A stretch of 64,000 bases of DNA from a virus, in the IMG/VR virus record IMGVR_UViG_3300035698_029839, positions 233,711 through 297,710 of that record; one strand, given 5' to 3'. A program made the position numbers and the translations under genes. Under the pieces are notes generated by a model that saw only the letters and a program-made list of their open reading frames with translations, searched no databases and had not been told where the DNA came from. Shown here in pieces: positions 18,450-60,418 of this stretch; position 1 is the stretch's first letter, and the number at the start of each line of letters is the position of its first letter.

Positions 18450-18450
18450 T

Positions 18451-18687: not shown

Positions 18688-18714
18688 TTAATAATTTTTT
18701 TTAGGAGAAAGATC

Positions 18715-18750: not shown

Positions 18751-18824
18751 GGTGTGAAGCTTATTCTGGTAAAGCACGCGACTTTTAATCGCGAGTCTTG
18801 GGAGTTCGAATCTCCCTACACCCA
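18750..18824 (+). tRNA. tRNA-Lys(TTT)
   Basis: Acceptor GGGTGTG/TACACCC, anticodon loop CTTTTAA, T-loop TTCGAAT. Confidence 0.93.
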
Positions 18825-18829
18825 TTAGT

Positions 18830-18903
18830 GCCTTTGAAGCTTATTTGGCAAAGCACCTGGTTCTTACCCAGGAGTCTTGAGCGTTCGAATCGCTCCAGAG
18901 GCA
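18830..18903 (+). tRNA. tRNA-Lys(CTT)
   Basis: Acceptor GCCTTTG/CAGAGGC, anticodon loop TTCTTAC, T-loop TTCGAAT. Confidence 0.92.
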
Positions 18904-18909
18904 TTTCCT

Positions 18910-18982
18910 GTCAGAGGTGATGTAATTGGCAGCATATCAGACTGTGAATCTGAGTGAGCGAGTTCAAATCTCGTCCTTTGAC
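18910..18982 (+). tRNA. tRNA-His(GTG)
   Basis: Acceptor TCAGAGG/CCTTTGA with an extra 5' G facing discriminator C, the His identity feature. Anticodon loop CTGTGAA, T-loop TTCAAAT. Confidence 0.92.
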
Positions 18983-19068
18983 CTTTTAAAAGGATTTGAA
19001 AATAAATAAAGGATTCAGATCCCTATTTTAGAATATAAGGTATAAACTATTTTTTTTGGAGAATAGAA

Positions 19069-19398
19069 ATGCCTTATAAAAATAAAGAAGATCAGTTAGA
19101 ATGTCAGAGAAGGTACTATCGTAATCATAGAAAAACTATGATCGAAAGAACCAATAAAAGAGCCAAAGAAATACGAAAATGGTGGAAAGAGTATAAAAAA
19201 ACACAAAAATGTGAAAAATGTGGAGAAAATCACCCAGCTTGTATTTGTTTTCATCATAGAGATCCAGAAGAAAAAGATATAGATCTATCCACTGCCGTTA
19301 CTCATAATCATTGGGGAGAAAAGAGAATAAAAAAAGAGTTATTAAAATGTGATGTTATTTGTTCTAATTGTCATCTTAAAATTCATTGGAATGATTAA
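19069..19398 (+). CDS. HNH-type zinc nuclease, single unit
   Basis: 109 residues: basic helical N-terminus, CEKCGE, CFHHRDPEEKD, CDVICSNCHLKIH. The same unit occurs twice in tandem in the gene at 51303. Between tRNA-His and tRNA-Cys. Confidence 0.85.
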   Translation: MPYKNKEDQLECQRRYYRNHRKTMIERTNKRAKEIRKWWKEYKKTQKCEKCGENHPACICFHHRDPEEKDIDLSTAVTHNHWGEKRIKKELLKCDVICSNCHLKIHWND

Positions 19399-19404
19399 TT
19401 TTTC

Positions 19405-19475
19405 GCTCGGGTGGTCTAATGGAATGATGACAGATTGCAAATCTGTAGGCGAGAGTTCGATTCTCTCCCTGAGCT
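19405..19475 (+). tRNA. tRNA-Cys(GCA)
   Basis: Acceptor GCTCGGG/CCTGAGC, anticodon loop TTGCAAA, T-loop TTCGATT. Confidence 0.92.
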
Positions 19476-19476
19476 T

Positions 19477-19512
19477 TTCCAGACAAGTGGTTTTTTATTA
19501 TTATTAAGTATA
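19477..19512 (+). promoter_or_regulatory. CCAGACAA element upstream of 19544
   Basis: Copy directly after tRNA-Cys; starts the small gene run 19544-20556. Confidence 0.6.
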
Positions 19513-19543
19513 AATATTAATTTTTGGTAAAAAGGATTAAAAG

Positions 19544-19711
19544 ATGGTAAAATATGTATTAACTGAAGAACAAGAAAAGAAGTTAAACGATGCAGATCTT
19601 GGACAATGGAAGAAACTAAATAATAAGGGTCAACAAGCTATTAAACAGAGAATGGCGATTGCTGACAGAATTGGACTAAAATTATCTGAAATAAAAAGAA
19701 TAGATTTATGA
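19544..19711 (+). CDS. 55-aa helical protein
   Basis: Ribosome site AAAGGAT. Charged, helical. Ends KRIDL; ATGA overlap with the next gene. Confidence 0.65.
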   Translation: MVKYVLTEEQEKKLNDADLGQWKKLNNKGQQAIKQRMAIADRIGLKLSEIKRIDL

Positions 19712-19920
19712 AGAAATCAGATGAAGACAGTTGTAGTGGTTTTAAAAGAGGATGGACTTCTGATCATGAAGAGTGCATAACATGTAAGAAGAATAGTCCT
19801 GCCAGATATAAAAAGTGCATGCAAGCAGTTAAAAAGTCGTTAAAAGAGAACTTTAGCACCGATGAAGAGATAGAGAAGTGGAAAAAAAAGAAAGTGAGAA
19901 ATGAAGATGAAAAGCTATAA
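19708..19920 (+). CDS. 70-aa Cys-containing basic protein
   Basis: Four Cys (CSGF, CITC, KCM) and a lysine-rich C-terminus. Coupled to both neighbours by overlap. Not recognised. Confidence 0.7.
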   Translation: MKKSDEDSCSGFKRGWTSDHEECITCKKNSPARYKKCMQAVKKSLKENFSTDEEIEKWKKKKVRNEDEKL

Positions 19921-20164
19921 ATCGATACCTGTCGAAGTAGAAGCAATTCAATTTTTCGATACTAAAGAAAGTTTTGATGAAACTAAAGAGATTTTTGGAG
20001 AAAGATTATCTTCTAGTCTCCGAAATTTTCCTAGAGCTTTTTTTAGAGTAGAAAATGGGAAAACTGTCCCTTTATATAATAATTCATGGATCGTGAAAAA
20101 AGATAATAAATTAGAGATTTTGGATGATGAAACATTTAAAAAAACATATGAAGAGAAAGGGTAA
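19901..20164 (+). CDS. Phage protein of the PVEVEAIQF family
   Basis: 87 residues. IPVEVEAIQF near the start and NSWIVKKDN..EILDDETFKKTYEE near the end match a common small phage family whose members end ..GDYI...G......P..F..TYE. Function unknown. Confidence 0.75.
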   Translation: MKMKSYKSIPVEVEAIQFFDTKESFDETKEIFGERLSSSLRNFPRAFFRVENGKTVPLYNNSWIVKKDNKLEILDDETFKKTYEEKG

Positions 20165-20167
20165 AAA

Positions 20168-20356
20168 ATGGTATTTTTTAAAAGGTATAAAATAAATGGG
20201 ATGTTATTGTTTTGGAACATTTGGTTATGGGCTATTCTTTTCATAACAGGATGTAGCACTGTCAAAACTCCTCCTTGGAGTGAGAATGAAGTTTCAAGAA
20301 TGTCTGAAGTAGGACAAAATAAAACAGTTCCTATAGTTTTAATAAAGGTAGATTGA
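20168..20356 (+). CDS. Small lipoprotein
   Basis: 62 residues. Basic N-terminus, hydrophobic helix and lipobox ITGC (Cys about residue 37); the mature part is about 26 residues. Length and lipobox would suit an outer-membrane spanin subunit, but no partner is next to it. Inference. Confidence 0.65.
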   Translation: MVFFKRYKINGMLLFWNIWLWAILFITGCSTVKTPPWSENEVSRMSEVGQNKTVPIVLIKVD

Positions 20357-20556
20357 TGGATATATCTAAAATATTTTGTTTTTTAGGACTTCATGACTGG
20401 TATTATGGAAATTTCCAGACAGGAGAGATGTCAAAATGGACAGGAGATCATGTTGGAGTTAGAGGAAGATCCTGTGTAAATTGTAATAAAAACCAAATAA
20501 AGAAAAAGAAGAAATATGTAACTGTTGATAGTTTTGAAAAACAATCAAATGAATAA
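20353..20556 (+). CDS. Small Cys-containing phage protein
   Basis: 67 residues: CFLGLHDWYYG then RSCVNCNKNQ, a pattern seen in small phage zinc-ribbon proteins. Overlaps the lipoprotein stop by 4 nt. Confidence 0.7.
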   Translation: MMDISKIFCFLGLHDWYYGNFQTGEMSKWTGDHVGVRGRSCVNCNKNQIKKKKKYVTVDSFEKQSNE

Positions 20557-20587
20557 GCGGGTGTGGTATAATGGCAAAATGCAAGGT
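20557..20587 (+). pseudogene. 5' half of a tRNA-Gly, truncated by an HNH gene
   Basis: GCGGGTG, D-arm TGGTATAATGGCAAAATGC and the first anticodon stem bases are present, then the sequence passes into the stop codon of the - strand HNH gene. No 3' half is found on the far side. Confidence 0.65.
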
Positions 20588-21250
20588 TTATATATTTAAA
20601 AATCCATGATCTAAATCCCAGTGATGATTGGGACAAAGAAACATTAAATTTTTAATATCATTAACAACTTTTAATTTTGTGTTTTTGTTAAATTGATTAA
20701 TAGCTTTAATATGACACAAATCTAATTTGTTATTATATGAACAAAGTGGACATTTATTTGGTTTAAGATTATAAAATTTTGCTATTTGATGAGCATGATT
20801 TCTGATGGATTGATATTTGTGTCTTGCATAGGTAGATGTAAAATCTTTAATATATTTCTCTCCATATTGTTCTATTCTGTTAAGAGTAAGACATTTTTGA
20901 CAATAATGGGTTTTTGATTGAGTTAGATTTTGACATCTTAAACATTTTCTTTTAGGGCGTTTTGGAAAAAGACTATTATTTGTTTTTGCAGCACAGGATC
21001 TAGAACAGTATTTAGGGTTTTTAGTTTTTGTTCCACAAGTAAAACAATTAATTATAGGTCTATTAGGAGCTTTTATTTTTATTATTTCTCCAAAACATTC
21101 TTTTAAAGCATTATTCCATGATCCGAATCTTTTGCTTACAGTCCATTTATCAAAAGATCCATATTTATTATAATCATTTAATGATGGAATTTTTTTTATT
21201 TTAATTTTAACTCTTTTAAGGTCTTCTATAAGTTTATTAGTTGTTATCAT
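20588..21250 (-). CDS. HNH endonuclease with N-terminal DNA-binding repeat
   Basis: 220 residues. N-terminal helix-rich repeat (KIPSLNDYNKYGSFDKWTVSKRFGSWNNALKEC), typical of homing nucleases, two zinc ribbons (CFTCGTK..CSRSC, CLRC..CQKC), then CPLC..LDLCHIKAIN and FLCPNHHWDLDHG HNH residues. Opposite strand to the tRNAs; its 3' end cuts into the tRNA-Gly remnant. Confidence 0.88.
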   Translation of the reverse strand: MITTNKLIEDLKRVKIKIKKIPSLNDYNKYGSFDKWTVSKRFGSWNNALKECFGEIIKIKAPNRPIINCFTCGTKTKNPKYCSRSCAAKTNNSLFPKRPKRKCLRCQNLTQSKTHYCQKCLTLNRIEQYGEKYIKDFTSTYARHKYQSIRNHAHQIAKFYNLKPNKCPLCSYNNKLDLCHIKAINQFNKNTKLKVVNDIKNLMFLCPNHHWDLDHGFLNI

Positions 21251-21273
21251 TATTACTCCTATAGTTTATTTAT

Positions 21274-21346
21274 GGGAATGAAACTCAATTGGACGAGTCT
21301 CACACTTCCACTGTGGGTGTTGCGAGTTCGAATCTCGTCATTCCCT
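21274..21346 (+). tRNA. tRNA-Gly(TCC)
   Basis: Acceptor GGGAATG/CATTCCC, anticodon loop CTTCCAC, T-loop TTCGAAT. Confidence 0.92.
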
Positions 21347-21438
21347 TTACTTATATTTCGGCATAAATGATTTGAATTCCTTTATTTTTATGGAAAAATA
21401 ATAAATTCATTTTCGAAAATGGATAAAATAAATTTAAT

Positions 21439-21510
21439 GCGAAATTGGTGTTAATGATAGCACATATGCTTGCCGAGCATAAGGTAAGAGTTTGAATCTC
21501 TTATTTCGCT
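21439..21510 (+). tRNA. tRNA-Gly(GCC)
   Basis: Acceptor GCGAAAT/ATTTCGC, anticodon loop TTGCCGA, T-loop TTTGAAT. Confidence 0.9.
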
Positions 21511-21515
21511 TTCAA

Positions 21516-21588
21516 GCCCCTGTACCAGAATTGGCATATGGACTGCGTTTAGACCGCAGGGATGGAGGTTCGAGTCCTCTCGGGGGCA
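21516..21588 (+). tRNA. tRNA-Leu(TAG), class I shape
   Basis: Acceptor GCCCCTG/CGGGGGC, anticodon loop TTTAGAC, T-loop TTCGAGT. Variable loop only about 4 nt, whereas bacterial Leu tRNAs have a long variable arm. Confidence 0.85.
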
Positions 21589-21592
21589 TTAT

Positions 21593-21628
21593 TTCCAGAC
21601 AAGTGGTTTTTTAATATTATATGATGTT
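21593..21628 (+). promoter_or_regulatory. CCAGACAA element upstream of 21650
   Basis: Copy of the element just after tRNA-Leu. Confidence 0.6.
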
Positions 21629-21649
21629 AACTATGTAAAAGAGGTAATC

Positions 21650-22030
21650 ATGAAACGTGTACTAACAATGGATGATATTAGAAAAGGGATGTATGTTACT
21701 GTTCTTCAAGGTAAGATAGAGCAGAAAGTAATCCCTACTCTTAATGGTCCTAGAATCGTTGATAAAGAAAATGATTATTGGAACGGAAAAATTTTAGAAG
21801 TTACTGCTGTTGATATGCCTTATATTGTAGTTAAACTCCATACAAACATGAGTTGTTCTACATATTCTCTTGATGTTAGGATTGTCCAGTTTATGCTTCT
21901 TTCTCCAGAATATATTAAAGCTTGTTGTCCTGATATAAAGATTTCTAAAGATCTTTTTTGGAAGGATATTAAAGATGATTCTATAAAGAATGTTAATACT
22001 ACTATTGAAGAGATTTTTAAGGATCTCTAA
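21650..22030 (+). CDS. Hypothetical protein, 126 aa
   Basis: Beta-rich N-terminal half of SH3-like composition (KGMYVTVLQGKI..GKILEVTAVDMPYIVVKL). Ribosome site AAGAGGTAATC. Not recognised. Confidence 0.8.
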   Translation: MKRVLTMDDIRKGMYVTVLQGKIEQKVIPTLNGPRIVDKENDYWNGKILEVTAVDMPYIVVKLHTNMSCSTYSLDVRIVQFMLLSPEYIKACCPDIKISKDLFWKDIKDDSIKNVNTTIEEIFKDL

Positions 22031-22040
22031 CACTGATTTT

Positions 22041-22199
22041 ATGGATATAGAATTACAACAATTAAAAGATGAATTAAGCGTGGTCTCTATGAGATTAGTT
22101 TATGTAACTGAAGATATTTCTATTAAAATGGCTGAAGGGGACAAATTAAATCAAAGAAAAATTGATTTAGTTGAAAAAATAATGAAATTAGAAGATTAA
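22041..22199 (+). CDS. 52-aa coiled-coil protein
   Basis: MDIELQQLKDELSVV..., heptad-like helix. Start set at the ATG 10 nt after the previous stop. Confidence 0.6.
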   Translation: MDIELQQLKDELSVVSMRLVYVTEDISIKMAEGDKLNQRKIDLVEKIMKLED

Positions 22200-22209
22200 C
22201 AAAGATAAA

Positions 22210-22283
22210 GCACCTGTAGTCTAATTGGAGAGGCACTGCGCTTCTAACGCAGATACATGCGGGTTCGAGTCCTGCCAGGTGTA
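22210..22283 (+). tRNA. tRNA-Arg(TCT)
   Basis: Acceptor GCACCTG/CAGGTGT, anticodon loop CTTCTAA, T-loop TTCGAGT. Confidence 0.92.
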
Positions 22284-22288
22284 ATCAA

Positions 22289-22363
22289 GCTCCCGAAGCT
22301 TAAATGGATAAGCATCTCTCTCCTAAAGAGAAGTTTTTGTAGGTTCGAGTCCTATCGGGAGTA
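22289..22363 (+). tRNA. tRNA-Arg(CCT)
   Basis: Acceptor GCTCCCG/CGGGAGT, anticodon stem TCTCT/AGAGA with loop CTCCTAA, T-loop TTCGAGT. Confidence 0.88.
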
Positions 22364-22368
22364 TTAAA

Positions 22369-22441
22369 GCCCCTATAGTATAATCGAATAGAACATCGGC
22401 CTACGAAGCCGAAGATGGGAGTTTGAGTCTTCCTAGGGGCA
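22369..22441 (+). tRNA. tRNA-Arg(ACG)
   Basis: Acceptor GCCCCTA/TAGGGGC, anticodon loop CTACGAA, T-loop TTTGAGT. A34 would need inosine modification by a host TadA. Confidence 0.9.
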
Positions 22442-23074
22442 TTATATTAGTTTTTTAATAATGTTTTTTATATCATTAAAAGCTTGTTTTAGTATTTTGT
22501 CATTAGATACTAAATCTGGAATAACTATTAAGTTGATGTTTTTGTTAGTTGCTATTTTAGTTTTTTTAGAGTCTATGTTTTGTATTTTATTTAATTTAGT
22601 TTGACCATAGATAGGTTTGAAATGAACTATACCATTCCATTCAATAGCCAATTTAAGACTAGGGATAGCAACATCTGTTTCTAATCCATTTAACATAATT
22701 TTATCGTTAGCTAAAATAGTTAAATTAGGAAATTCTTTTACAAGTAAATTGTAAAATTTAGTTTCTATTTTAGATCTACGAGATTTCCTTTTTAATTTGT
22801 TATTATAAGTGGCAGCGCAAGATTTAGAACAAAAAGATTTACCTGATTTAGATTTTTTTATTTCTGATGGAAGAGTTGTTATTTTTTTATTACAAGATCC
22901 ACAAAAGGTTTTTACGAGGTTTATTTGTTTTTTATGATTATTAAAGCATTTTCTATTGCAAAAAGTGTGTTTATATCTATAACTATATTTTCTTATATTG
23001 CGAGTATGATCAGCTAAAATTCTTTCAAATAATTTTTTACAGTAGTAACATTTTAATTTAATAACTTTTCGCAT
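22442..23074 (-). CDS. Vsr/DUF559-like endonuclease with zinc ribbons
   Basis: 210 residues. Three N-terminal Cys clusters, then SKIETKFYNLL...ETDVAIPSLKLAIEWNGIVHFKPIYGQ..LNKIQNIDSKKTKIATNKNINLIVI, the E..D..E.NG.HH core of very-short-patch-repair/DUF559 restriction-like nucleases. In phages such genes are free-standing homing nucleases. Ends exactly at the 3' end of tRNA-Arg(ACG). Confidence 0.85.
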   Translation of the reverse strand: MRKVIKLKCYYCKKLFERILADHTRNIRKYSYRYKHTFCNRKCFNNHKKQINLVKTFCGSCNKKITTLPSEIKKSKSGKSFCSKSCAATYNNKLKRKSRRSKIETKFYNLLVKEFPNLTILANDKIMLNGLETDVAIPSLKLAIEWNGIVHFKPIYGQTKLNKIQNIDSKKTKIATNKNINLIVIPDLVSNDKILKQAFNDIKNIIKKLI

Positions 23075-23173
23075 AGTTTATATCCTGAATTTATTTTTCT
23101 TATTATTTATATATTCTATTAAAAAATCTTAAATCCTTTTTATTTTTTTTCGAGTCCTGAGTGGGACGTTAAT

Positions 23174-23245
23174 AGGTCGGTGGTGTAATGGCTAGCATAT
23201 TGGTCTCCAAAACCGAAGATTAGGGTTCGACTCCCTACCTTCCTG
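23174..23245 (+). tRNA. tRNA-Trp(CCA)
   Basis: Anticodon stem TTGGT/ACCGA, loop CTCCAAA, T-loop TTCGACT. Acceptor AGGTCGG/CCTTCCT has two mismatches. Confidence 0.82.
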
Positions 23246-23249
23246 TTTA

Positions 23250-23282
23250 TTCCAGACAACTGGTTTTTCGTAATGATAGAAT
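23250..23282 (+). promoter_or_regulatory. CCAGACAA element
   Basis: Copy between tRNA-Trp and the sigma-70-like promoter at 23336; no gene starts directly after it. Confidence 0.5.
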
Positions 23283-23335
23283 AAGAGTAGTTAAAAGAGG
23301 TAGTTTGACATTTCTTTCACTTTTTTATTTTTCTC

Positions 23336-23364
23336 TTGAAAGTGAAAGGGTGCTGCCATATAAT
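23336..23364 (+). promoter_or_regulatory. Promoter for the RNA genes at 23372
   Basis: TTGAAA, 17-nt spacer starting GTGAAAGG, TATAAT. The tRNA-like RNA begins 8 nt further on. Confidence 0.7.
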
Positions 23365-23371
23365 AGATGAT

Positions 23372-23513
23372 GAGCAGTGGTAGAAATTGGTATGGCTACA
23401 ATAACATTAGGTAGTTGTATATATCTAGTGGTTGTGTAAGCATTTATATTGTGAACCCCCTTTTTTAAGGTCAGCGGGTCCAAACCGAAACAGGTTTAAG
23501 CCCTGTCTGCTCT
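23372..23513 (+). tRNA. 142-nt tRNA-like RNA with inserted sequence
   Basis: Acceptor GAGCAG/CTGCTC, Leu/Ser-like D-arm GGTAGAAATTGGTATGGCT, variable-arm-like CGG/CCG hairpin, T-arm CAGG-TTTAAGC-CCTG. The anticodon arm region is about 58 nt too long, with several small stems; an intron-like insertion or a non-decoding RNA. Confidence 0.5.
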
Positions 23514-23528
23514 TTATAAGTTAAATAA

Positions 23529-23677
23529 GAAATGAGATAGTAGTTTGGTAAGCTAAAAATTAATGACACGGCTGAGGCAGGGCGACCCCCTACTACGTAG
23601 AGATCGACACTTACTTAGATTTATTTTTACCAGAATAAATTGAAAAAGTTAGTTTTTATCTATCTTATTTCTTTTTT
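23529..23677 (+). ncRNA. Unassigned structured RNA with terminator
   Basis: 12-bp closing stem GAAATGAGATAG/CTATCTTATTTC (one G-T) followed by TTTTTT, a second TAAAAATTAA/TTAGTTTTTA layer and a GTAGTAG/CTACTAC pairing. No frame, not a tRNA. Has the closing-stem-plus-T-run plan of the Y-like RNAs but not their motifs. Confidence 0.5.
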
Positions 23678-23681
23678 ATAT

Positions 23682-23754
23682 GCCCAGGTAGGCCAACGGC
23701 AGAGTCAACGGTCTTAAAAGCCGTAAAGTGGAGGTTCAAATCCTCTCCTGGGCA
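23682..23754 (+). tRNA. tRNA-Leu(TAA), class I shape
   Basis: Acceptor GCCCAGG/CCTGGGC, anticodon loop CTTAAAA, T-loop TTCAAAT, 5-nt variable loop. Same body as the gene at 24004. Confidence 0.85.
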
Positions 23755-23784
23755 TTACGGTTTTTTAAATGTAAGGAGTAAGAA

Positions 23785-23997
23785 ATGTTAGTATTGAGTA
23801 GACAAAAAAATGAATCGATTATGATTAATGATGGAGATAGACTTATAGAGATCTGTATCGTTGATGTGCGTGGTGATAAGGTTCGACTTGGAATAACGGC
23901 TCCAAAAGATATCCCTGTTCATAGAAAAGAAATTTATGAAGCGATTCAAAGAGAAAAAGAAGAAGAACAGAATAAGGATATTTCAGATCCTCTTTAA
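23785..23997 (+). CDS. csrA: CsrA, carbon storage regulator
   Basis: 70 residues, usual length for CsrA (about 60-70). [39 protein letters not shown] are the conserved RNA-contacting strands, including the Arg of VHR. CsrA dimers bind GGA in hairpins near ribosome sites and repress or stabilise mRNAs. Ribosome site AAGGAG. Placed between two Leu tRNAs. Many genes here start after GGAG sites, so both phage and host mRNAs could be targets (inference). Confidence 0.95.
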
Positions 23998-24003
23998 AGA
24001 TAA

Positions 24004-24076
24004 GCCCAGGTAGCCCAACGGCAGAGGCGGTAGACCCAAAATCTATTTAGTGAGAGTTCGAATCTCTCTCTGGGTA
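24004..24076 (+). tRNA. tRNA-Leu(CAA), class I shape
   Basis: Acceptor GCCCAGG/TCTGGGT, anticodon loop CCCAAAA (C33), T-loop TTCGAAT, short variable loop. Diverged duplicate of the gene at 23682. Confidence 0.8.
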
Positions 24077-30872: not shown

Positions 30873-32207
30873 ATGCCAGTAGTAATAGAACATAAAAAAT
30901 TTAGTTGCACAAAGTTGGGTAGCAATAATAATAAGTTTTGGAACGTAACACTTTATGATAATGATGATGTTATGTCAGAATGGGGAAGACAGGGGAAAAC
31001 CTCACAATCTAAAACTTGGCCAGGTGTGGGTCGTTCTTTTATGGAAAAGAAGATAGAAGAAAAGAACAAAAAAGGGTATCATGAAAACCAAGTAGTCGAA
31101 GGGTCTGGGGAAGTTTCAATATCAGGACATAAAGTTGCTAACACTGAATTAAAAGATATAGCAGCTAAGCAAATAAAATCTAAAAATCCTATCGTAGCAA
31201 AATTAGTTAGTTTTTTAGTCGATGTAAACGCTCATGCTATACATAAAGCAACAGGCGGTAAAATTACATATGATACAAGCTCCGCTACGTTCAAAACTAC
31301 ACAAGGAGTAGTTATACCATCGCAAGTTACAAGGGCAAGAGATTTGTTATCTACTATGTACGATTATGTTAAAAATAACAAATTTGATATGATAGAGGAT
31401 AATTTGAACGAATACTTATCTTTGATTCCGAGAGATTTTGGTATGCACAAGATGAGTCCTTCTGATATTCTTCCAGATGTTGCAGCTGTTGGAGCAGAGA
31501 ATGATATTTTAGATGGTTTGGATTCTTCTTTTGCAGGATTACAAACGTCCACACCGAAAAAGAAAACGACGAAGAAAACAACAAAGAAAAAAGATACTCC
31601 ACAGATTTTTGATGTAGAAATGGGTATTGTTACAGATAAGAAAATCATATCTCATGTCAAACATCTTTATCAATCAACACGCAGAAGTATGCACCAGTCC
31701 AACAGTTTATCTGTACAAACAGTTTACTCTGTAACTATCAAGACAGTAAAAAATGCTTTTGATAGTCATGGAGCAAAGATGAAAAATATTTGGCAGTTGT
31801 GGCATGGTACAAAAGCAAGTAACCTTTTGTCTATTATGAGACAAGGTTTGATTATACCACCGTCAAGCTCTGGACATGTAACAGGTCGTATGTATTCAGA
31901 TGGTGTTTATTTTTCTGATATTAGTACTAAAGCATTAAATTATGCCACTAATTATTGGGGAGGTGGGGGTAGTACTGATAAAACATTTATGTTCTTAGCA
32001 GATGTTGCGATGGGAAAATATCATATAGCTAAAGATTCATGGACTAATTATCCTGTCTCTGGTTCAGATAGCACTTGGGCTAAAGGTAGAGACAAGGGAG
32101 GTGTTAATAGTGGCGTAATAAATGATGAAATGATAGTATATCGTACCGATCAGTGTAATTTGGTTTACCTTGTCGAATTTGTACCAAGGAATCAGCTTAG
32201 GAAATAA
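30873..32207 (+). CDS. Poly(ADP-ribose) polymerase-like protein (WGR, regulatory, ART domains)
   Basis: 444 residues with the core order of DNA-dependent PARPs. WGR domain about 1-75 (NKFWNVTLYD, SEWGRQGKTS, F...KNKKGY). Helical regulatory domain about 85-205 ending YLSLIPRDFG, equivalent to FYTLIPHDFG of PARP1. A Lys/Thr linker (about 220-250). Catalytic ART domain about 265-444: LWHGT (His), SDGVYFSD...ALNYA (Tyr), NDEMIVY (Glu), so the H-Y-E triad is complete, which in the family allows chain elongation. PARPs move ADP-ribose from NAD+ to proteins or DNA ends. The macrodomain gene at 35956 could reverse it. Confidence 0.93.
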   Translation: MPVVIEHKKFSCTKLGSNNNKFWNVTLYDNDDVMSEWGRQGKTSQSKTWPGVGRSFMEKKIEEKNKKGYHENQVVEGSGEVSISGHKVANTELKDIAAKQIKSKNPIVAKLVSFLVDVNAHAIHKATGGKITYDTSSATFKTTQGVVIPSQVTRARDLLSTMYDYVKNNKFDMIEDNLNEYLSLIPRDFGMHKMSPSDILPDVAAVGAENDILDGLDSSFAGLQTSTPKKKTTKKTTKKKDTPQIFDVEMGIVTDKKIISHVKHLYQSTRRSMHQSNSLSVQTVYSVTIKTVKNAFDSHGAKMKNIWQLWHGTKASNLLSIMRQGLIIPPSSSGHVTGRMYSDGVYFSDISTKALNYATNYWGGGGSTDKTFMFLADVAMGKYHIAKDSWTNYPVSGSDSTWAKGRDKGGVNSGVINDEMIVYRTDQCNLVYLVEFVPRNQLRK

Positions 32208-52376: not shown

Positions 52377-52740
52377 AAATATTGCCGACATAAGAAGAGA
52401 AAATGAGATAATCTATGGGACAAAGGACAACACATTTGATGATTTTCCTATAGCAATCAGGGTTAAGGTAATAACTCCTTGTGAAGATTTCACATTCTTT
52501 GATGGAGAGACTGGCGTAGTTACTCAAAATACAGGAGATTATTTAGGTATATCTGTAGAGTTTGATGATCCTCATCGTTATAGGGACGGTAGTGTGTTGA
52601 CAGGGTTTAATTTTAATCCCAAGAGCTTATGTGTTCTAAATAAGATAACAGAAGAAATAGCAGAATCGATAAGAGAAAAGATCGGTTTGGATGAATTTCA
52701 GAAAGAACGATCAGCCAGATTTATGATATTAGACTTATGA
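52369..52740 (+). CDS. ILDL-tailed protein 1, 123 aa
   Basis: C-terminal SARFMILDL. Body has a beta-rich middle (RVKVITPCEDFTFFDGETGVVTQ) like small SH3 barrels. Start placed at the ATG after TTGGGA. Stop overlaps the next start (TTATGA). Confidence 0.8.
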   Translation: MGKNIADIRRENEIIYGTKDNTFDDFPIAIRVKVITPCEDFTFFDGETGVVTQNTGDYLGISVEFDDPHRYRDGSVLTGFNFNPKSLCVLNKITEEIAESIREKIGLDEFQKERSARFMILDL

Positions 52741-53054
52741 ATTATAAAGTCGGAGATAAGATTAAGATAAAAACATGGGAAGAGATGGAAAAAGAGTTTG
52801 GATTCGGAAATAATAACAAAACTATCATAACTTGTTCTGGACTTTTTAATTCTACAATGGAAAAAGAAATTGAAGAATTAAAAACTAATAGAATATTAAC
52901 AGTTAAAGAAGTAGAAATTAATCATCGTTATAGAATGAAAGAAAGAACTAGTGAAATAGCATGGACTTGGTCAGATGATATGATTAGGTGTTTAGTAAAA
53001 GACTATAAAGTACCTGACCCTATAAAATCACGATTGGAGATATTAGACTTATGA
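52737..53054 (+). CDS. ILDL-tailed protein 2, 105 aa
   Basis: Ends KSRLEILDL. N-terminus YKVGDKIKIKTWEEMEKEFG is repeated in the gene at 53266, so the two are paralogues; a KOW/SH3-like start. TTATGA overlaps on both sides. Confidence 0.82.
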   Translation: MNYKVGDKIKIKTWEEMEKEFGFGNNNKTIITCSGLFNSTMEKEIEELKTNRILTVKEVEINHRYRMKERTSEIAWTWSDDMIRCLVKDYKVPDPIKSRLEILDL

Positions 53055-53269
53055 CAGATGAACAGATAATAAAAAGATTTAGAAAAAGAGAAAAAATATT
53101 AGGAGTATGGTCAGCAGAAAGAGGTTATGATGCTTGGGATATTTTTATTAAAAAAGAAAAATGGTGTCAGCTATCGGCAGTTACAACAACACCATTAAAA
53201 GATATGTTAAGAAATTATCCAACAGCTAATATCGATTGGGATACAGTTACAGCTAGGAAATTAACATGA
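53051..53269 (+). CDS. 72-aa protein without the tail
   Basis: Overlaps both neighbours by 4 nt. Helical first half. Ends ARKLT, with no ILDL. Confidence 0.75.
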   Translation: MTDEQIIKRFRKREKILGVWSAERGYDAWDIFIKKEKWCQLSAVTTTPLKDMLRNYPTANIDWDTVTARKLT

Positions 53270-53598
53270 GATATAAAGTAGGAGATAAAGTAAGAATAAA
53301 GACTTGGAAACAGATGAAGAAAGAATTTAGACTAATAAAATCATCGACAGGGAAGTCTCATATGAGCATAGATATAGGTCATTATCATATAGCTTTTAAT
53401 CCAAGCACAGAAATAAAACTTAATAAATTAAATACTAATAGAATAGTAACTATTGCAAAAGTAAAAGAAACCATAAATAACAGATATTATATTATGAAAG
53501 AAATATCAAATCATATGTTTGATGAAAAAGTAATAAAGAATATAGTAAAAGAAATATATGAACCTATTTGTAGTAGATTAGAGATATTAGACTTATGA
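53266..53598 (+). CDS. ILDL-tailed protein 3, 110 aa
   Basis: Ends CSRLEILDL. Paralogue of the gene at 52737 (YKVGDKVRIKTWKQMKKEF). Confidence 0.82.
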   Translation: MRYKVGDKVRIKTWKQMKKEFRLIKSSTGKSHMSIDIGHYHIAFNPSTEIKLNKLNTNRIVTIAKVKETINNRYYIMKEISNHMFDEKVIKNIVKEIYEPICSRLEILDL

Positions 53599-53864
53599 TA
53601 AATTGGATCAATACAAAAGAAGAACTTCCCAGAGCGGGAGATTTAGTTATTATTTATAGTGAAGATAAAACAGTGATAGAAACAGAAATAGAAAAAACAA
53701 AATATTGGGCAGGTGTATGGAATGCTGAATATACTAAAGAATGGGAAAAATATAAAGAAAAATCATTATATTGTTTTTGGGCTCCAATAAATAAACCAGC
53801 ATTAGATATGCCAGTAAGGTTTATAGAATCTATAGAAAACAGATCGGATATATTAGACTTATAA
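53595..53864 (+). CDS. ILDL-tailed protein 4, 89 aa, DUF551-like
   Basis: Ends ENRSDILDL. W.....ELP..G..VIIYS...I....KYWAGVWN...CFWAPI resembles the small phage DUF551 pattern (W...ELP..g..V...HW.pLP). Role unknown. Confidence 0.8.
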   Translation: MINWINTKEELPRAGDLVIIYSEDKTVIETEIEKTKYWAGVWNAEYTKEWEKYKEKSLYCFWAPINKPALDMPVRFIESIENRSDILDL

Positions 53865-54130
53865 TGACAAAAGATACTACACTTTTTAATAATAGTACTA
53901 TAGCAGAAGTACAGGAAGGTGAATACTTTCCACCTGTGAGTATAGCATGGGATAAGGATGGAAGAAGTATGTATCTTCCTGTTCATTATGAAAAGAAATT
54001 AGTGCAATACGATATATCAGTAGGACAATATGTTTATTCTGATGGAAGATTTGGAGCAACATTTTTTAAGATAAGAATAGATAATTCCAAGAACATTATA
54101 AAAGACAGATTTGAGATTTTGGACTTATGA
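53864..54130 (+). CDS. ILDL-tailed protein 5, 88 aa
   Basis: Ends KDRFEILDL. Beta-rich body. Overlaps by 1 and 4 nt with its neighbours. Confidence 0.8.
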   Translation: MTKDTTLFNNSTIAEVQEGEYFPPVSIAWDKDGRSMYLPVHYEKKLVQYDISVGQYVYSDGRFGATFFKIRIDNSKNIIKDRFEILDL

Positions 54131-54426
54131 TAATTTGGAATAAAATAGCAGAAAAATTACCAAAGATAAATAAAAATATTTTTCTTTTTGGAGAAGAACT
54201 GCAACATATAAGATATGGTTGTTTACGTATTTTTGATCCAAAAAAATCTGAACTTTTAGATCCTAAAAAAAAGCTCAAAGAAGGAGATACTTATTGGCAG
54301 GTTCATATGAAAATAGGAGAACAATTTTGGGTATTACCAGAAAGATATCCTTATTGGTTAACTAATAAAGAATTAGTTGCACAAATAATAGAAAAAACAG
54401 ATAGACTTAATATTTTAGACTTATAA
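54127..54426 (+). CDS. ILDL-tailed protein 6, 99 aa
   Basis: Ends TDRLNILDL. Body starts IIWNKIAEKLPKINKNIFLFG, distantly like the gene at 53595. Confidence 0.8.
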   Translation: MIIWNKIAEKLPKINKNIFLFGEELQHIRYGCLRIFDPKKSELLDPKKKLKEGDTYWQVHMKIGEQFWVLPERYPYWLTNKELVAQIIEKTDRLNILDL

Positions 54427-54923
54427 TGCAGAATAATTTAGTAGGAAAAATGGTAACTTTTGAACAAGGCGATGATGGAATAGAAGTCACAGGAGAAGTC
54501 ATGACTCTTACTACTGACAATCATGGTAATTTACGTTTGTATGTATGGATAGCAAAAGAAAAAAAATTATTTCATGTCCCTTCTCATATTATAAAAGATA
54601 TTATTCCAAATAGAAAAGAAATAAATACTTACAAGTGGTATTCAATATTAGAAATTAAACCGCCGCTAAGTCATGCTGTTGTTGGTTTTTTCACAGAAGG
54701 AAAATACGAAAACCAAATAAGACTTTTACATCGTTATGAAGAGGCTGACGAGGAAAAGACAATAATTTTATGGACATCTATTAGTCTAAAAAATTCTGAT
54801 GAAGTTGCAGATGATGAATGGATTCCTCCTAATAGTACTATGTGGAGATTCATAGATACAGATATTCCATTAGAAATAATAGATAACCAACAAATAGATA
54901 GATTACACATATTAGATTTATAA
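54426..54923 (+). CDS. ILDL-tailed protein 7, 165 aa
   Basis: Ends IDRLHILDL. N-terminal SH3-like half (VGKMVTFEQGDDGIEVTGEVMTL), then a DUF551-like second half (WYSILEIKPPLSHAVVGFF...WIPPNSTMW). Confidence 0.8.
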   Translation: MQNNLVGKMVTFEQGDDGIEVTGEVMTLTTDNHGNLRLYVWIAKEKKLFHVPSHIIKDIIPNRKEINTYKWYSILEIKPPLSHAVVGFFTEGKYENQIRLLHRYEEADEEKTIILWTSISLKNSDEVADDEWIPPNSTMWRFIDTDIPLEIIDNQQIDRLHILDL

Positions 54924-54932
54924 GGAGTAAAA

Positions 54933-55325
54933 ATGAATAAAAAAATAGATATTAAAGCAACAAGTGAAAAGATTAACCTTGCTATTATAGGTAAAACAAT
55001 GTATGATATATTTACGAGAAAGATAATAAGGCCTCCTTACTTACTCATTAGATATGCCTATAATACTAAAAGTGGCCTTATGATTTCTTTTATATTACTT
55101 CTTGTCTTATTAAGCTTATTTATATGGCTTGTAGCAGGAAACGTTTTTTGGATATCTCTTTTTCTAATGTTTATATGGTTTGTTAGTCTTATAGCTATGT
55201 TTTGTCATCATGATGATAATTATTTCCGTACTCTTGATACCGAACCCAAATGGGTTTTAAAATTTATAAAATCTTTAACTCAAATGAAAGAAGATATCAT
55301 AACAACAGATAAAGAAAGAGAGTAA
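54933..55325 (+). CDS. Membrane protein, 130 aa
   Basis: Two helices (about 47-65 and 70-88). The N-terminal TRKIIRPPYLL..Y resembles FITRKIIRSTFANI in the gene at 57226. No ILDL tail. AAGGAGTAAAA site. Confidence 0.8.
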   Translation: MNKKIDIKATSEKINLAIIGKTMYDIFTRKIIRPPYLLIRYAYNTKSGLMISFILLLVLLSLFIWLVAGNVFWISLFLMFIWFVSLIAMFCHHDDNYFRTLDTEPKWVLKFIKSLTQMKEDIITTDKERE

Positions 55326-55328
55326 AAA

Positions 55329-55541
55329 ATGCATAAACAAAAACCTGGAGACGTTAAAATAAGAATACCCAAAAGCAGACAAAAAGAGATATTTAATATA
55401 CTAATAGAATTCTTTAACAAGCATCAAATGTACGACGGAGAAAGTATTTGTCAATCAGATGACGCTATTATAGATTCTCCTGATCTTGTTGGGGACTTAG
55501 CGGATCTTTTATTTAAGGACACAGAGATAGATTATGAATAA
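55329..55541 (+). CDS. 70-aa protein
   Basis: Basic N-terminus, acidic C-terminus. No tail. Overlaps the next gene. Confidence 0.72.
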   Translation: MHKQKPGDVKIRIPKSRQKEIFNILIEFFNKHQMYDGESICQSDDAIIDSPDLVGDLADLLFKDTEIDYE

Positions 55542-55695
55542 TCCGACATTAGATAAAATAAAGAATTTTGCGGTAAAAGAATTAAAGAATAAATATGGTT
55601 TCTGTGGTCTAGCTGATGGTGATGATATGTGTATAATCAATGCTACCGATTCGGAAAACAAAGATATAATTATTAAGATAGAGATTAAAAAATGA
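55534..55695 (+). CDS. 53-aa protein
   Basis: MNNPTLDKIKNFAVKELKNKYG...; overlaps both neighbours (8 and 4 nt). No tail. Confidence 0.68.
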   Translation: MNNPTLDKIKNFAVKELKNKYGFCGLADGDDMCIINATDSENKDIIIKIEIKK

Positions 55696-56093
55696 AAACT
55701 TGTCCTAATCCTAAATGTGGTAGTCATAAAATAATCATATTTGACTCTGATAATAATTATTGTCAAAAATGTAATGAATGGTTTCCAGCCGTAGCTGAAG
55801 AGGAATGTATAGCAGGATGTAGAGTATATGCAAATGAAGAAATAAAACATCATAAAGATTGTCTCTATTACCCAGAAAGCTTATCAAAAATGCATGATGA
55901 TTTCAAAACAAAACATATGGAACTTATTACTAAATTAGCAGATGATATATGGGCAGTAGGAAAGAAATTAGAGTCAAGAGAATTTGAAACAAGTAAAGAA
56001 TTAAAAGTTATTTCAGGTTGTCTTCATGATATTAGAGCAGAACGTGATACTGAATGGTACAAAAAATTCAAAATAGATGAGGAAAAATCATGA
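55692..56093 (+). CDS. Zinc-ribbon protein, 133 aa
   Basis: CPNPKCGSHK...CQKCNEWFP zinc ribbon, a CIAGC..H..C second site, then a helical C-terminal half. Overlaps the CoaD-CoaE gene by 4 nt. Confidence 0.8.
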   Translation: MKTCPNPKCGSHKIIIFDSDNNYCQKCNEWFPAVAEEECIAGCRVYANEEIKHHKDCLYYPESLSKMHDDFKTKHMELITKLADDIWAVGKKLESREFETSKELKVISGCLHDIRAERDTEWYKKFKIDEEKS

Positions 56094-57226
56094 CAACAGC
56101 AATATATGCATTTAGTGGCGACCCTATAACATATGGTCATATTGACATAATCAACAGAGCTAGAGCAACATTCGACCAGGTTATAGTAGCCATCGGAGAG
56201 AACCCTGATAAAAATTATACTTTTTCTTTAGAGGAAAGAGAAAGTATGGCTAAGCAGTGCTTCAATGATTCATCAATCAGGGTTCTCTCATTTTCTAACT
56301 TACTAGTGGACTTTGCTTATGAACAAGGAGCAAGTGTAATAATCAAAGGAGTAAGAAACTCTGCTGATTTTGACTATGAAAGTATCTTACATTCTATTGG
56401 TCAAAGTCAAGAAGTTGGAATAGATACTCACATACTCTTCGCTGACCCCAGATTGGCACACATTAGCAGTAGTGTAGTTAAGGCAATAGCACAGCATAGT
56501 GGATCGATACACGAATACGTACCACTACACGTTAAACAAGCTATTGAAGAAAAGATATATGACCAAACTATCATAGGAGTAACAGGAGAGATTTGTGCTG
56601 GCAAATCTCATATATGTAAAATGTTAAGTAGATATCAACATTTTACAGGTGGTTATCAAAACATCCACAATATAGAATTGGATCAGATTGGTCATGATAT
56701 TCTTTCTAAACTCACAGATCCACCTTATGTACAAATAAGAAAAGAGATAGGCGAATTTGCACCTACATCTATTGAAGAGGATGGTTTTATCAACAGATCA
56801 GTATTAGGATCAATAGTATTTAATGATTCTAATAAACTACAAAAATTAAACGACATAATGACTAAACCTATAATGATTAGATTAAGAAAAGAAATTTCGG
56901 GAAAGAAAGGAATAATTTTAATCAATTGTGCCTTATTGGCAGAAGCTCATATACTCCACACATGCAACAACAACACCATTCTAATAAAGGTGGATAAAGA
57001 CACTCAAAGAAAAAGATTATTGGATCGTAGGCTAACTGAAGAGCAAATAGAGACACGTCTGAATAGTCAATACACTTATGATCGTAAGAAGTATCAAATA
57101 GAAGAAAATATCTATCATAATCGACATGGTAAGTTTTGGGAAATTGATAATACTAGTATGATAACTATGGAAGATTTACATAAGGAATTTGAAAAGATAC
57201 TAACAGATATAAGAAAGAAAAATTGA
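56090..57226 (+). CDS. CoaD-CoaE fusion: phosphopantetheine adenylyltransferase and dephospho-CoA kinase
   Basis: 378 residues. Residues 1-155 match CoaD: FSGDPITYGHIDIINRA with the TxGH nucleotidyltransferase motif, VIIKGVRNSADFDYE, and SSSVVKAIAQHSGSIHEYVPLHVKQAI. Residues 160-378 match CoaE: P-loop GEICAGKS, LDQIGHDIL, RSVLGSIVFND, the LLAEA lid region, RKRLLDRRLTEEQIETRLNSQ. Together they turn 4'-phosphopantetheine into CoA in two ATP-dependent steps. The order is that of animal CoA synthase; bacteria use two separate genes. No ILDL tail. Overlaps both neighbours, so it is part of the train. Confidence 0.93.
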   Translation: MTTAIYAFSGDPITYGHIDIINRARATFDQVIVAIGENPDKNYTFSLEERESMAKQCFNDSSIRVLSFSNLLVDFAYEQGASVIIKGVRNSADFDYESILHSIGQSQEVGIDTHILFADPRLAHISSSVVKAIAQHSGSIHEYVPLHVKQAIEEKIYDQTIIGVTGEICAGKSHICKMLSRYQHFTGGYQNIHNIELDQIGHDILSKLTDPPYVQIRKEIGEFAPTSIEEDGFINRSVLGSIVFNDSNKLQKLNDIMTKPIMIRLRKEISGKKGIILINCALLAEAHILHTCNNNTILIKVDKDTQRKRLLDRRLTEEQIETRLNSQYTYDRKKYQIEENIYHNRHGKFWEIDNTSMITMEDLHKEFEKILTDIRKKN

Positions 57227-57657
57227 TGAATACATTATATTATTTTATCACGCGAAAAATAATTAGGAGTACTTTTGCTAATATACATATAGTATTTAAA
57301 TCTTTATTTTACATGTTGTCAATAGCAAGTTTATCAACTATTCTTCCTATTATTTTTAGGACATATTTATTTTTTCCTACTCCAAATGCAATGGGAATTC
57401 TTACTATTATATATCTTGCTATTTTTGGAATTCTTCTTTTTATACGTCTTATACAGATATTAGATTGGTATGATATAGAGGATGAACCACATTTTGTCCA
57501 ACAATTTATTGAAGATTGCTGTCGTTCTGATAATAATTTAGAAGAAAAGTATAAACAAGAAAAAGAAGTAAGATTACAAGTAATAAAACAAAAGAAAGAA
57601 GCAAAAAGACTCAAAGCAGAACTAATTAATAATAGAACTGATATATTAGACCTATAA
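57226..57657 (+). CDS. ILDL-tailed membrane protein 8, 143 aa
   Basis: Ends NNRTDILDL. Two helices (about 20-40 and 55-78) and a coiled cytoplasmic-type tail. Relative of the gene at 54933. I use the ATG overlapping the previous stop (TGATG). Confidence 0.8.
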   Translation: MNTLYYFITRKIIRSTFANIHIVFKSLFYMLSIASLSTILPIIFRTYLFFPTPNAMGILTIIYLAIFGILLFIRLIQILDWYDIEDEPHFVQQFIEDCCRSDNNLEEKYKQEKEVRLQVIKQKKEAKRLKAELINNRTDILDL

Positions 57658-57686
57658 AAAAGTTTTAAATAGAAAAGGAGTAAATA

Positions 57687-57905
57687 ATGTCAAGACATGC
57701 AGAATTAAGAAAAGAAGAGGGAGTAGAGCATGTATCAACAAAAGAAGATGGAGCTTTGAAGTGCTGGAGAGATCAACATAGAATATGTTCTTCTCAATGT
57801 GTTGCTTGGGTAAAGATGGGAACTACTAGAAAGATCTATTGTAAAGCCTTGCCATCAGGACAACATGAGATTGCCGAATATGTTGAAGAAGAGAATGGAG
57901 CATAA
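57687..57905 (+). CDS. 72-aa Cys-rich protein
   Basis: CWRDQHRICSSQCVAW...CKAL. Possibly metal-binding. AAGGAGTAAATA site; no tail. Confidence 0.75.
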   Translation: MSRHAELRKEEGVEHVSTKEDGALKCWRDQHRICSSQCVAWVKMGTTRKIYCKALPSGQHEIAEYVEEENGA

Positions 57906-58119
57906 TACGCCATTTAAAGAACAAAATATTAAATATGTCACGATTGAGGGTAAAGAGCCTATTTGTTTTTCTTGGGGAATAAATAGCTTTGGTTTTGGTA
58001 CAACAACTTTCTTTTATGAAGATGATAAATTAAAGTGTGATAATGAAACTCTTAGTAAAGATAGTATAAAAAAGATTCTTTGTGCTTTGGTCGATGAAGC
58101 AGAGTTTATAGATAAATAG
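57895..58119 (+). CDS. 74-aa protein
   Basis: Overlaps the previous gene by 11 nt. Beta-rich. No tail. Confidence 0.7.
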   Translation: MEHNTPFKEQNIKYVTIEGKEPICFSWGINSFGFGTTTFFYEDDKLKCDNETLSKDSIKKILCALVDEAEFIDK

Positions 58120-58151
58120 AACCAGTTTAATCTTATTCCCGAAAAAATATT

Positions 58152-58523
58152 ATGATACTTAATTTTATTTTATATGGTTATATTGTTCCATTGATATGGG
58201 CTATTATTATTGGTCAGGTTGTGATTTATTTTGATTCTGAATATCGATCATGGGAGATAGGGAAAAAAATAGGGATTCATCTCCATTATTTTGTGATATC
58301 TTTTATTCCTGTTGCTGCTCCTGTTGCTCTTACTCTCATAGCAGGAATAGATTTGAGAGAACATTATAAGCGTAGACACAATGATGATGGAGAAAATTTT
58401 GACAATTATAGAACATTTAGGGAATCAGAAGAGGCAGAACTTGCAAAGAATATTGGTATTAAAATAGTTAAAAATGAGAAGATCAACCCTATAACTGATC
58501 GATTAGAGATATTGGACTTATAA
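58152..58523 (+). CDS. ILDL-tailed membrane protein 9, 123 aa
   Basis: Ends TDRLEILDL. Two to three helices (about 5-27 and 43-70). Similar in plan to the genes at 59252 and 59614. Confidence 0.8.
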   Translation: MILNFILYGYIVPLIWAIIIGQVVIYFDSEYRSWEIGKKIGIHLHYFVISFIPVAAPVALTLIAGIDLREHYKRRHNDDGENFDNYRTFRESEEAELAKNIGIKIVKNEKINPITDRLEILDL

Positions 58524-58699
58524 TGCGTTGTCATATTTGTAAAAAAGAAATAGAAGGAAATTATCATAAACACACTTGCGATATTGATGGTATAGATGAA
58601 GAATTTTATACTCATCCTGGAGATTGTGATAAAAAATTTCTTGATGAATCTACAAATAAAAAACCTGCAAATAGTAGGTTTGAGATATTAGACTTATGA
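58523..58699 (+). CDS. ILDL-tailed zinc protein 10, 58 aa
   Basis: Ends NSRFEILDL. MRCHICKKEIEGNYHKHTCDIDG...FYTHPGDC: a Cys/His zinc unit that is almost the whole protein. Paralogue of the next gene. Confidence 0.8.
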   Translation: MRCHICKKEIEGNYHKHTCDIDGIDEEFYTHPGDCDKKFLDESTNKKPANSRFEILDL

Positions 58700-58896
58700 T
58701 GGAATTTGGAAATACATTTAAATGTCATACTTGCAGAAAAGAAATAAACAAAGATTATCATAGATATCATCATAGTCTCGATAATATAGAGCTAAATTTT
58801 TATACTCATCATGGGATTTGTGATACAATATTTCGTGGTAAATATGTTAAACCTTTTGAAGAAATAGATAATCGATTAGAGATATTGGACTTATGA
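58696..58896 (+). CDS. ILDL-tailed zinc protein 11, 66 aa
   Basis: Ends DNRLEILDL. FKCHTCRKEINKDYHRYHHSLDN...FYTHHGICD. Paralogue of the gene at 58523; both keep the tail. Confidence 0.8.
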   Translation: MMEFGNTFKCHTCRKEINKDYHRYHHSLDNIELNFYTHHGICDTIFRGKYVKPFEEIDNRLEILDL

Positions 58897-59255
58897 AGAA
58901 TAACTTTTTAAAATTAAAAAAGAATAAACATTATAAATTTGTTTTATTAGATCCTGATCGAATGATATCATTAACGATATCGAAACCTGATAAGAAAAAA
59001 TTTTTTAAGTCCTCCACAAAAAATAAAACGGCAGCAAAAACAACACATTCTTCTTATGGAACTTATTCTAGGAATCTTATGATGGGTCATGCAACCCTTG
59101 TATCTATTCAAGATGCATTAGGCAGTTGTGAAACTTTAAGACAGATGGAGGCAGATATGATAAAAGATACAGAACAAGGCATAAATAAGAAAATATTTTG
59201 TCCTCATTGTGAGGCAGAAAAGATACATGACAGATTCGAGATATTGGACTTATGA
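58893..59255 (+). CDS. ILDL-tailed protein 12, 120 aa
   Basis: Ends HDRFEILDL. Basic N-terminal half, then a CPHCEAE motif just before the tail. Confidence 0.8.
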   Translation: MKNNFLKLKKNKHYKFVLLDPDRMISLTISKPDKKKFFKSSTKNKTAAKTTHSSYGTYSRNLMMGHATLVSIQDALGSCETLRQMEADMIKDTEQGINKKIFCPHCEAEKIHDRFEILDL

Positions 59256-59596
59256 GTGTAATAACAATTATATTAATAATATATCTAATTCAATTAATGG
59301 TATCTTGTCCAATTTTTTCAATAATTTGGTACAGGGATAATATAAAAAATGGAAAAAGAAAAGCAATACTTGAAGCTTGTAAGGGAGGACTTATAAGTTT
59401 TGTACCAGTAATACCTATAATGGCAATAACGTATTTAATTTATATAGAAACTGGAAATGAATTTAAAAAATGGTTAAAAAATGATCCTACTTCTCCTGAC
59501 AATATGAATGATCCAGATTTTATTCTTCCGCAAAAAAAGATCAAGAAAATAATTTTAGAACCAATAAAAAACAGAACAGATATTTTAGATTTATAA
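59252..59596 (+). CDS. ILDL-tailed membrane protein 13, 114 aa
   Basis: Ends KNRTDILDL. Two helices (about 3-23 and 45-66). Confidence 0.8.
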   Translation: MSVITIILIIYLIQLMVSCPIFSIIWYRDNIKNGKRKAILEACKGGLISFVPVIPIMAITYLIYIETGNEFKKWLKNDPTSPDNMNDPDFILPQKKIKKIILEPIKNRTDILDL

Positions 59597-59613
59597 TACT
59601 GGAGATAAAAATT

Positions 59614-59922
59614 ATGTCTTTTTTATATTTTTATATTATTTCGTCATTATGGTGTGTAATAATCGGCCAGATTATAGCTTTTTTTGAATGGAAATCAGAT
59701 CCAGGAAGGCCAAGGATAGTTATTCATATCGGAATTTTTGTTTTGTCTTTTGTCCCTATTATTAGCCCTTTTATAGCAACTCTTGCATTGATTGTTAAAT
59801 CAATTGATTATTCATATAAGAAAATTTTGGAATGGGTTCAGACAGCCCCATTTCCTAAAGTTATTAAGAATAAAAAACCAATCGATTTTATCGAAGAACG
59901 TGTTAATATTTTAGATTTGTGA
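59614..59922 (+). CDS. ILDL-tailed membrane protein 14, 102 aa
   Basis: Ends EERVNILDL. Two helices (about 2-22 and 37-62). ACTGGAGAT site. Confidence 0.8.
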   Translation: MSFLYFYIISSLWCVIIGQIIAFFEWKSDPGRPRIVIHIGIFVLSFVPIISPFIATLALIVKSIDYSYKKILEWVQTAPFPKVIKNKKPIDFIEERVNILDL

Positions 59923-59929
59923 GAAAAAT

Positions 59930-60418
59930 ATGGTTAGAAAGAAAATATTTAAAGATTTATTTGATCGAGAAATAAAAGTTGAGGATATTGTTCTTAATGT
60001 TTGGGCAAATAATGAGAGTTATAGGATGCAAGGAGAAGGAGATCCAGGAGTTGTCCAATATAGGACAGCTAAAGTAATAAAATTCTGTCCTCAGAGTATT
60101 AGAATAGAATATATGCAAGGTAAAACCTTAAAAGATAGTAGTATCTATAATACTCATAATAGGATTATTGTCATGACAAAAAATAAAGAAATTGTTGATA
60201 CTTCCGATATAGACAAGGAAATGGAAATAAAAAACGCTGAAATAGAAGTGAGAAATAAAACAATAAAAAGATTAATGAAAGATTTAGGAACGAATGCCAA
60301 ATATAAAAAAGAAGCAGATGAAGAAATAGAAAATTATATAGAAAAAATAGAAGAGTTAGAAAGTACTATTGATAAGTTGATACAAGATTATAAAAGATTT
60401 AGTTTATTAGATTTATAA
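59930..60418 (+). CDS. ILDL-tailed protein 15, 162 aa
   Basis: Ends YKRFSLLDL, the most diverged tail. N-terminal beta part, C-terminal coiled coil (about 90-155). Confidence 0.8.
   Translation: MVRKKIFKDLFDREIKVEDIVLNVWANNESYRMQGEGDPGVVQYRTAKVIKFCPQSIRIEYMQGKTLKDSSIYNTHNRIIVMTKNKEIVDTSDIDKEMEIKNAEIEVRNKTIKRLMKDLGTNAKYKKEADEEIENYIEKIEELESTIDKLIQDYKRFSLLDL

Follow-up and report, generated by a model that had tools for sequence, protein, structure and literature searches.

A fused CoaD-CoaE protein encoded on a virus contig is a probable bifunctional CoA synthase of a family shared with DPANN and CPR cells

Phages are already known to carry genes for the last two steps of CoA synthesis, coaD for phosphopantetheine adenylyltransferase (PPAT) and coaE for dephospho-CoA kinase (DPCK), and fusions of PPAT with DPCK are already known in eukaryotes. 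In uncultured archaea, PPAT is found fused to a GTP-dependent DPCK of arCOG04076, and the last step of CoA synthesis has been reported missing in the Nanoarchaeota and other DPANN (PMC6650551). A study of snow viromes reports coaD and coaE as abundant viral metabolic genes, and its authors note an increase of CoA intermediates upon phage infection (PMC11097641). In the part of the literature covered by our search we found no prokaryotic CoaD-CoaE fusion of the bacterial type, although this coverage does not prove novelty. Here, we describe such a fusion, CoaDE, encoded in the last 64 kb of a virus record of 297,710 bases (G000:C1:233711-297710); this whole stretch is referred to below as the window.

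The preliminary description of this DNA had placed CoaD and CoaE in one protein on a virus contig, with intact TxGH and P-loop motifs, and both points held. The gene (56090-57226, + strand) is a single ORF that runs from ATG to stop without internal stops and codes for 378 residues; no long frame lies opposite to it on the other strand. The CoaD or PPAT domain spans residues 1-157 (56090-56560, +) and the CoaE or DPCK domain residues 159-378 (56564-57223, +). Residues 3-155 matched TIGR01510 with 153.3 bits (NCBI curated equivalog cut-off, 103.3) and residues 161-341 matched TIGR00152 with 90 bits (cut-off, 65.55), and the Pfam matches agreed with these assignments. An AlphaFold model of CoaDE, made with 21 family members, had a pLDDT of 88.9 and a pTM of 0.86, both halves being confident, and its top structural matches were PPATs and DPCKs. 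The N-terminal half superimposed on the E. coli PPAT (6b7a) with a Z score of 23.5 and an rmsd of 1.2 over 158 residues. Residues 145-378 matched the DPCK part of mouse CoA synthase (2f6r; Z 17.1), and the C-terminal half matched a bacterial CoaE (4i1u; Z 17.0).

The TxGH motif reads T14-Y-G-H17 and is part of a family signature, FSGDPITYGH (residues 8-17; 56111-56140, +), whereas the P-loop reads G166-EICA-G-K172-S173 (GEICAGKS, residues 166-173; 56585-56608, +). In an alignment of 21 fused proteins S9, D11, G16 and H17, as well as G166 and K172, were invariant. The loop before TxGH is AFSGDP in the window protein and PG[ST]FDP in ordinary CoaD. We considered whether AFSGDP could be a broken or decayed motif and rejected this, because the family-specific residues F8 and G10 are present in 19 and 18, respectively, of the 21 aligned fused proteins; the loop is thus a signature of the family. 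The catalytic residues of PPAT that were compared (T10, H18, K42, R88, R91 and S128-S130 in E. coli numbering) are those shown to matter in the H. pylori enzyme, in which the position of R88 is essential (PMC12784347). They correspond to S9, H17, K41, K86, R89 and S126-S128 of CoaDE, with two conservative changes, T10 to S9 and R88 to K86; R91 is kept as R89. Lysine occupies the R88 position in the window protein, as it does in 14 members of the 21-protein alignment. This replacement of an essential residue counts against the reading of CoaDE as a CoA synthase, and the departure of the AFSGDP loop from the canonical ATP site suggests that the kinetics or the donor may differ. In the kinase half, the residues shown to matter in the mycobacterial enzyme (PMC3019153) correspond to K172 (the P-loop lysine), D198 (the catalytic aspartate, D32 in M. 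tuberculosis), L282 and R309 (the lid arginine, R140).

The start of the fused gene overlaps by 4 nt a small upstream ORF (55692-56093, +), and its stop overlaps by 4 nt a small membrane-type ORF (57223-57657, +). Because of these overlaps with both neighbors, coaDE is probably part of a polycistronic unit, and the upstream ORF would belong to the same transcription unit. A putative ribosome-binding sequence, GAGGA (56079-56083, +), precedes the start codon. No RNA structure beyond chance was found at the start of the gene, and scans of the locus for promoters and terminators gave matches at chance level only. The downstream ORF ends in RTDILDL. A total of 32 different small ORFs of the contig share an almost identical C-terminal peptide, in most cases [DN]R[FL][ED]ILDL; 15 of these lie in the window (52740-60418) and the others in stretches L003, L004, L005, L011 and L012. 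The codons of the tail vary synonymously, so that it looks conserved as protein. The tail, which was absent from seven other (short) phage loci checked, may be a C-terminal tag for sorting or docking.

Used by itself in a viral scan, the window protein returned no relatives, and an alignment of CoaD only gave no usable search pattern. An alignment of CoaE led to 22 viral loci, among which one codes for a fusion (L024). In other viral loci coaD and coaE are adjacent (L029 and L034), adjacent in the reverse order (L044 and L045), or coaE overlaps a gene for a CoaD joined to an HD-type hydrolase (L027); in the 735-kb phage LR756501, coaD and coaE overlap by 4 nt. A second alignment search added one more viral fusion (L046), as well as 18 full-length ones from genome bins. 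The fusion is present on two virus contigs besides that of the window, and in 28 distinct metagenome-assembled genomes (MAGs), one with a partial copy, of DPANN archaea, CPR bacteria and scattered other bacteria. In surveys of three phyla, which share some genomes with the 18-bin set, the genomes with full-length fusions numbered 3 of 96 in the Aenigmatarchaeota, 7 of 194 in the Woesearchaeota and their kin, and 4 of 287 in a CPR phylum; partial or interrupted fusions were found as well. The first 20 relatives are 37-53% identical to the window protein. Thus, the proposal that the fusion is special to phage, and that cells use only separate enzymes, was not supported: the family is patchy, apparently undescribed, and occurs chiefly in archaea and bacteria that are tiny and metabolically reduced. 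One cellular copy (L052) adjoins an archaeal PCNA gene, recognized by eye, and another lies on a 573-kb contig of G015 together with ribosomal protein S7. At least these two copies are therefore chromosomal rather than mis-binned phage; copies on short contigs could be mis-binned.

Several loci were left out of the phage evidence. The waaA-coaD-mutM locus of "Campylobacter phage A11a" (L015) lies on a bacterial contig, and chromosomal loci of Acinetobacter, Staphylococcus and Enterococcus under phage labels were likewise excluded. Such bacterial contigs in the phage collection (L015, L021, L022 and L023, for example) inflate counts of phage coaD and coaE. An ORF that follows coaD in a Brevundimonas phage was rejected as coaE, as it has no kinase P-loop.

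A phylogeny of each domain, suggested in the preliminary description as a check, placed the window protein among cellular copies on both trees; its nearest relatives were both from DPANN, L142 for CoaE and L051 for CoaD. For CoaE, a single group (SH-aLRT 96) comprised 31 fused rows together with one separate row. For CoaD, fused rows grouped with support of 80-87 except for the long-branched L130; two long rows fell outside or were weakly placed. In a test from which the two longest fused rows were omitted, a single fused clade was not rejected (p-AU 0.43). A clade of the three viral fused copies was neither supported nor rejected (p-AU 0.228), and branch support inside the fused group was weak. 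The simplest reading of these trees would be one origin of the fusion, wide horizontal transfer, and then acquisition by phage. Since a single fused origin was not rejected and the window copy lies among cellular copies, the phage most likely took a ready-made fused gene, although the direction of transfer is inferred.

We also asked which other CoaD and CoaE genes accompany the fusion in cells. The fusion was the only CoaD above cut-off in 23 of the 25 MAGs tested, a separate CoaD being kept in G004 and G016, and the only CoaE in 21, a separate CoaE being present in G012, G016, G017 and G019. No CoaBC was found in 13 of the 25, the four CPR bins among them, a pattern that fits phosphopantetheine salvage. 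All of these absence counts hinge on bin completeness, for which figures were not given. In three MAGs (G008, a Spirochaetes bin, G018 and G020) the fusion is both the sole CoaD and the sole CoaE, and CoaBC is present, so that the fusion is the obvious candidate for the last two steps in these genomes. This pattern, together with the retention of CoaBC in several MAGs, supports real CoA synthesis by the fused family, and favors ordinary CoA synthesis as its role.

Our preferred reading, to which we give a probability of about 0.78, is that CoaDE is a bifunctional prokaryotic CoA synthase of a horizontally spread fused family, acquired ready-fused, that would convert host phosphopantetheine to CoA in infection. 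The N-terminal PPAT would form dephospho-CoA from ATP and 4'-phosphopantetheine, and the C-terminal kinase would phosphorylate dephospho-CoA to CoA. CoaBC was not found on the window contig, and the phosphopantetheine must therefore come from the host; it may be host-made or released from carrier proteins. The phage enzyme would thus bypass host CoaD and CoaE. Horizontal transfer would have spread the family through DPANN archaea, CPR and scattered other bacteria, and giant phages, and the phage would have taken the gene already fused. Whereas the sequence, the predicted fold, the catalytic residues, the membership of the family and the cellular relatives are directly observed, we infer the activity of CoaDE, the direction of transfer and the benefit of CoA supply.

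An HD-type hydrolase (a weak Pfam HD match) is fused or adjacent to CoaDE in 12 of the 28 cellular fusion loci. Three of these code for three-part CoaD-CoaE-HD proteins (L059, L140 and L142), and in the other nine the gene is adjacent. Fusions of HD with CoaD alone, in either order, occur in the 462-kb phage LR756500 (L018, 3001-4161), in L027 (4941-5990) and in L155. In these three loci and in L071, the CoaD to which HD is fused or adjacent has the ordinary loop, suggesting that the hydrolase goes with CoaD as such. No HD match was found in the window or in the other stretches of the same contig. A mobile CoA-salvage module, CoaDE with or without HD, may pass between host-dependent DPANN or CPR cells and giant phages and capture the phosphopantetheine of another cell, HD being an unrecognized step of CoA turnover; we put this forward tentatively, as a possibility with the odds against it. 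The repeated association with HD points to a step of CoA metabolism that is still unassigned.

The same enzyme could have a different purpose, namely counter-defense, in which CoaDE would restore CoA when a host defense depletes CoA or its precursors. Phage genes for NAD+ reconstitution restore NAD+, and in L024 the viral fusion follows a gene for nicotinate phosphoribosyltransferase (L024, 2902-4119) about 1.4 kb downstream, and L044 has a nucleotidyltransferase/Nudix gene near its coaE-coaD pair; CoA and NAD-type genes thus travel together in some giant phages. Moreover, the window phage encodes a poly(ADP-ribose) polymerase-like protein (30873-32207; 444 residues) with WGR, PARP regulatory and PARP catalytic domains. 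However, we know of no CoA-depleting defense, none was found here, and the co-occurrence with NAD-type genes is expected equally if the genes serve general cofactor supply. We consider this purpose unlikely.

Still less probable is that the enzyme acts on another nucleotide pair, such as a NAD-type cofactor, an RNA 5' end or a signaling nucleotide, with AFSGDP and HD as marks of a changed specificity. The family-specific F8 and G10 at the ATP loop would fit such a change, as would the frequency of HD in the cellular loci, which CoA synthesis alone does not explain. Yet the equivalog cut-offs are passed for both enzymes, and in several genomes that retain CoaBC no other CoaD or CoaE accompanies the fusion. 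In addition, two of the three viral copies (L046 and L024), although of the same fused family, have the ordinary SFD loop, and HD also accompanies CoaD proteins with that loop.

That the contig is a piece of chromosome from CPR or DPANN, or else a plasmid, and the gene an ordinary cellular member of the family, is suggested by the cellular nearest relatives of coaDE and by the failure to find terminase large subunit or tail sheath on the (possibly incomplete) contig, but is very unlikely given its listing as a virus record in IMG/VR, its 33 tRNA genes within about 12 kb (window 12299-24076, with small ORFs between them), its densely packed, very small and overlapping ORFs, few of which belong to known families, its replication set of DNA polymerase, processivity factor, clamp loader and helicase matching phage families, the failure to find ribosomal protein S7 on it, and the presence of the fused gene on another contig with both terminase and tail sheath (L046; G001). 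Because of that last contig, phage carriage of the fused family does not rest on the window contig alone. Two proteins at the end of the window had no phage matches. Elsewhere on the contig (stretches L003-L014), three ORFs match DNA polymerase III alpha, three have intein splicing domains, and one protein has a Ro60-type vWA domain.

With CoaDE as a probable CoA synthase, the fused family becomes a candidate enzyme for both last CoA steps in DPANN and CPR cells. In phages, the terminal CoA pathway occurs in at least two arrangements, fused and adjacent, besides CoaD fused to HD, and these phage-borne arrangements make a role for CoA supply in infection directly testable.

How does CoaDE compare with the described systems? 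Its N-terminal half resembles bacterial CoaD (TIGR01510) in fold, catalytic residues and sequence (about 40% identity), but is fused to CoaE and has AFSGDP for PGTFDP and lysine for R88. Its C-terminal half resembles CoaE (TIGR00152) in P-loop, catalytic aspartate, lid arginine and fold, but groups with fused copies, has IELD for VDAD, a CNNN motif and a longer insert after the P-loop helix. The preliminary description had likened the protein to animal CoA synthase. The order of the domains, PPAT then DPCK, is indeed that of the eukaryotic enzyme (COASY), as would be the two activities, and the kinase half is structurally near to the mouse protein; the best matches of the CoaD half, by contrast, were all bacterial PPATs, in comparisons that included no solved eukaryotic PPAT half. 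The simplest reading is that the two fusions are independent. CoaDE is, like the fusion of uncultured archaea (PMC6650551), a prokaryotic PPAT-DPCK fusion, but the arCOG04076 kinase is of an unrelated family, whereas that of CoaDE is a bacterial-type CoaE. Finally, the separate coaD and coaE of giant phages (LR756501 and others) and of snow viromes (PMC11097641) provide the same two steps on phage genomes, but belong to other clades; the window phage has instead the fused form that is shared with cells.
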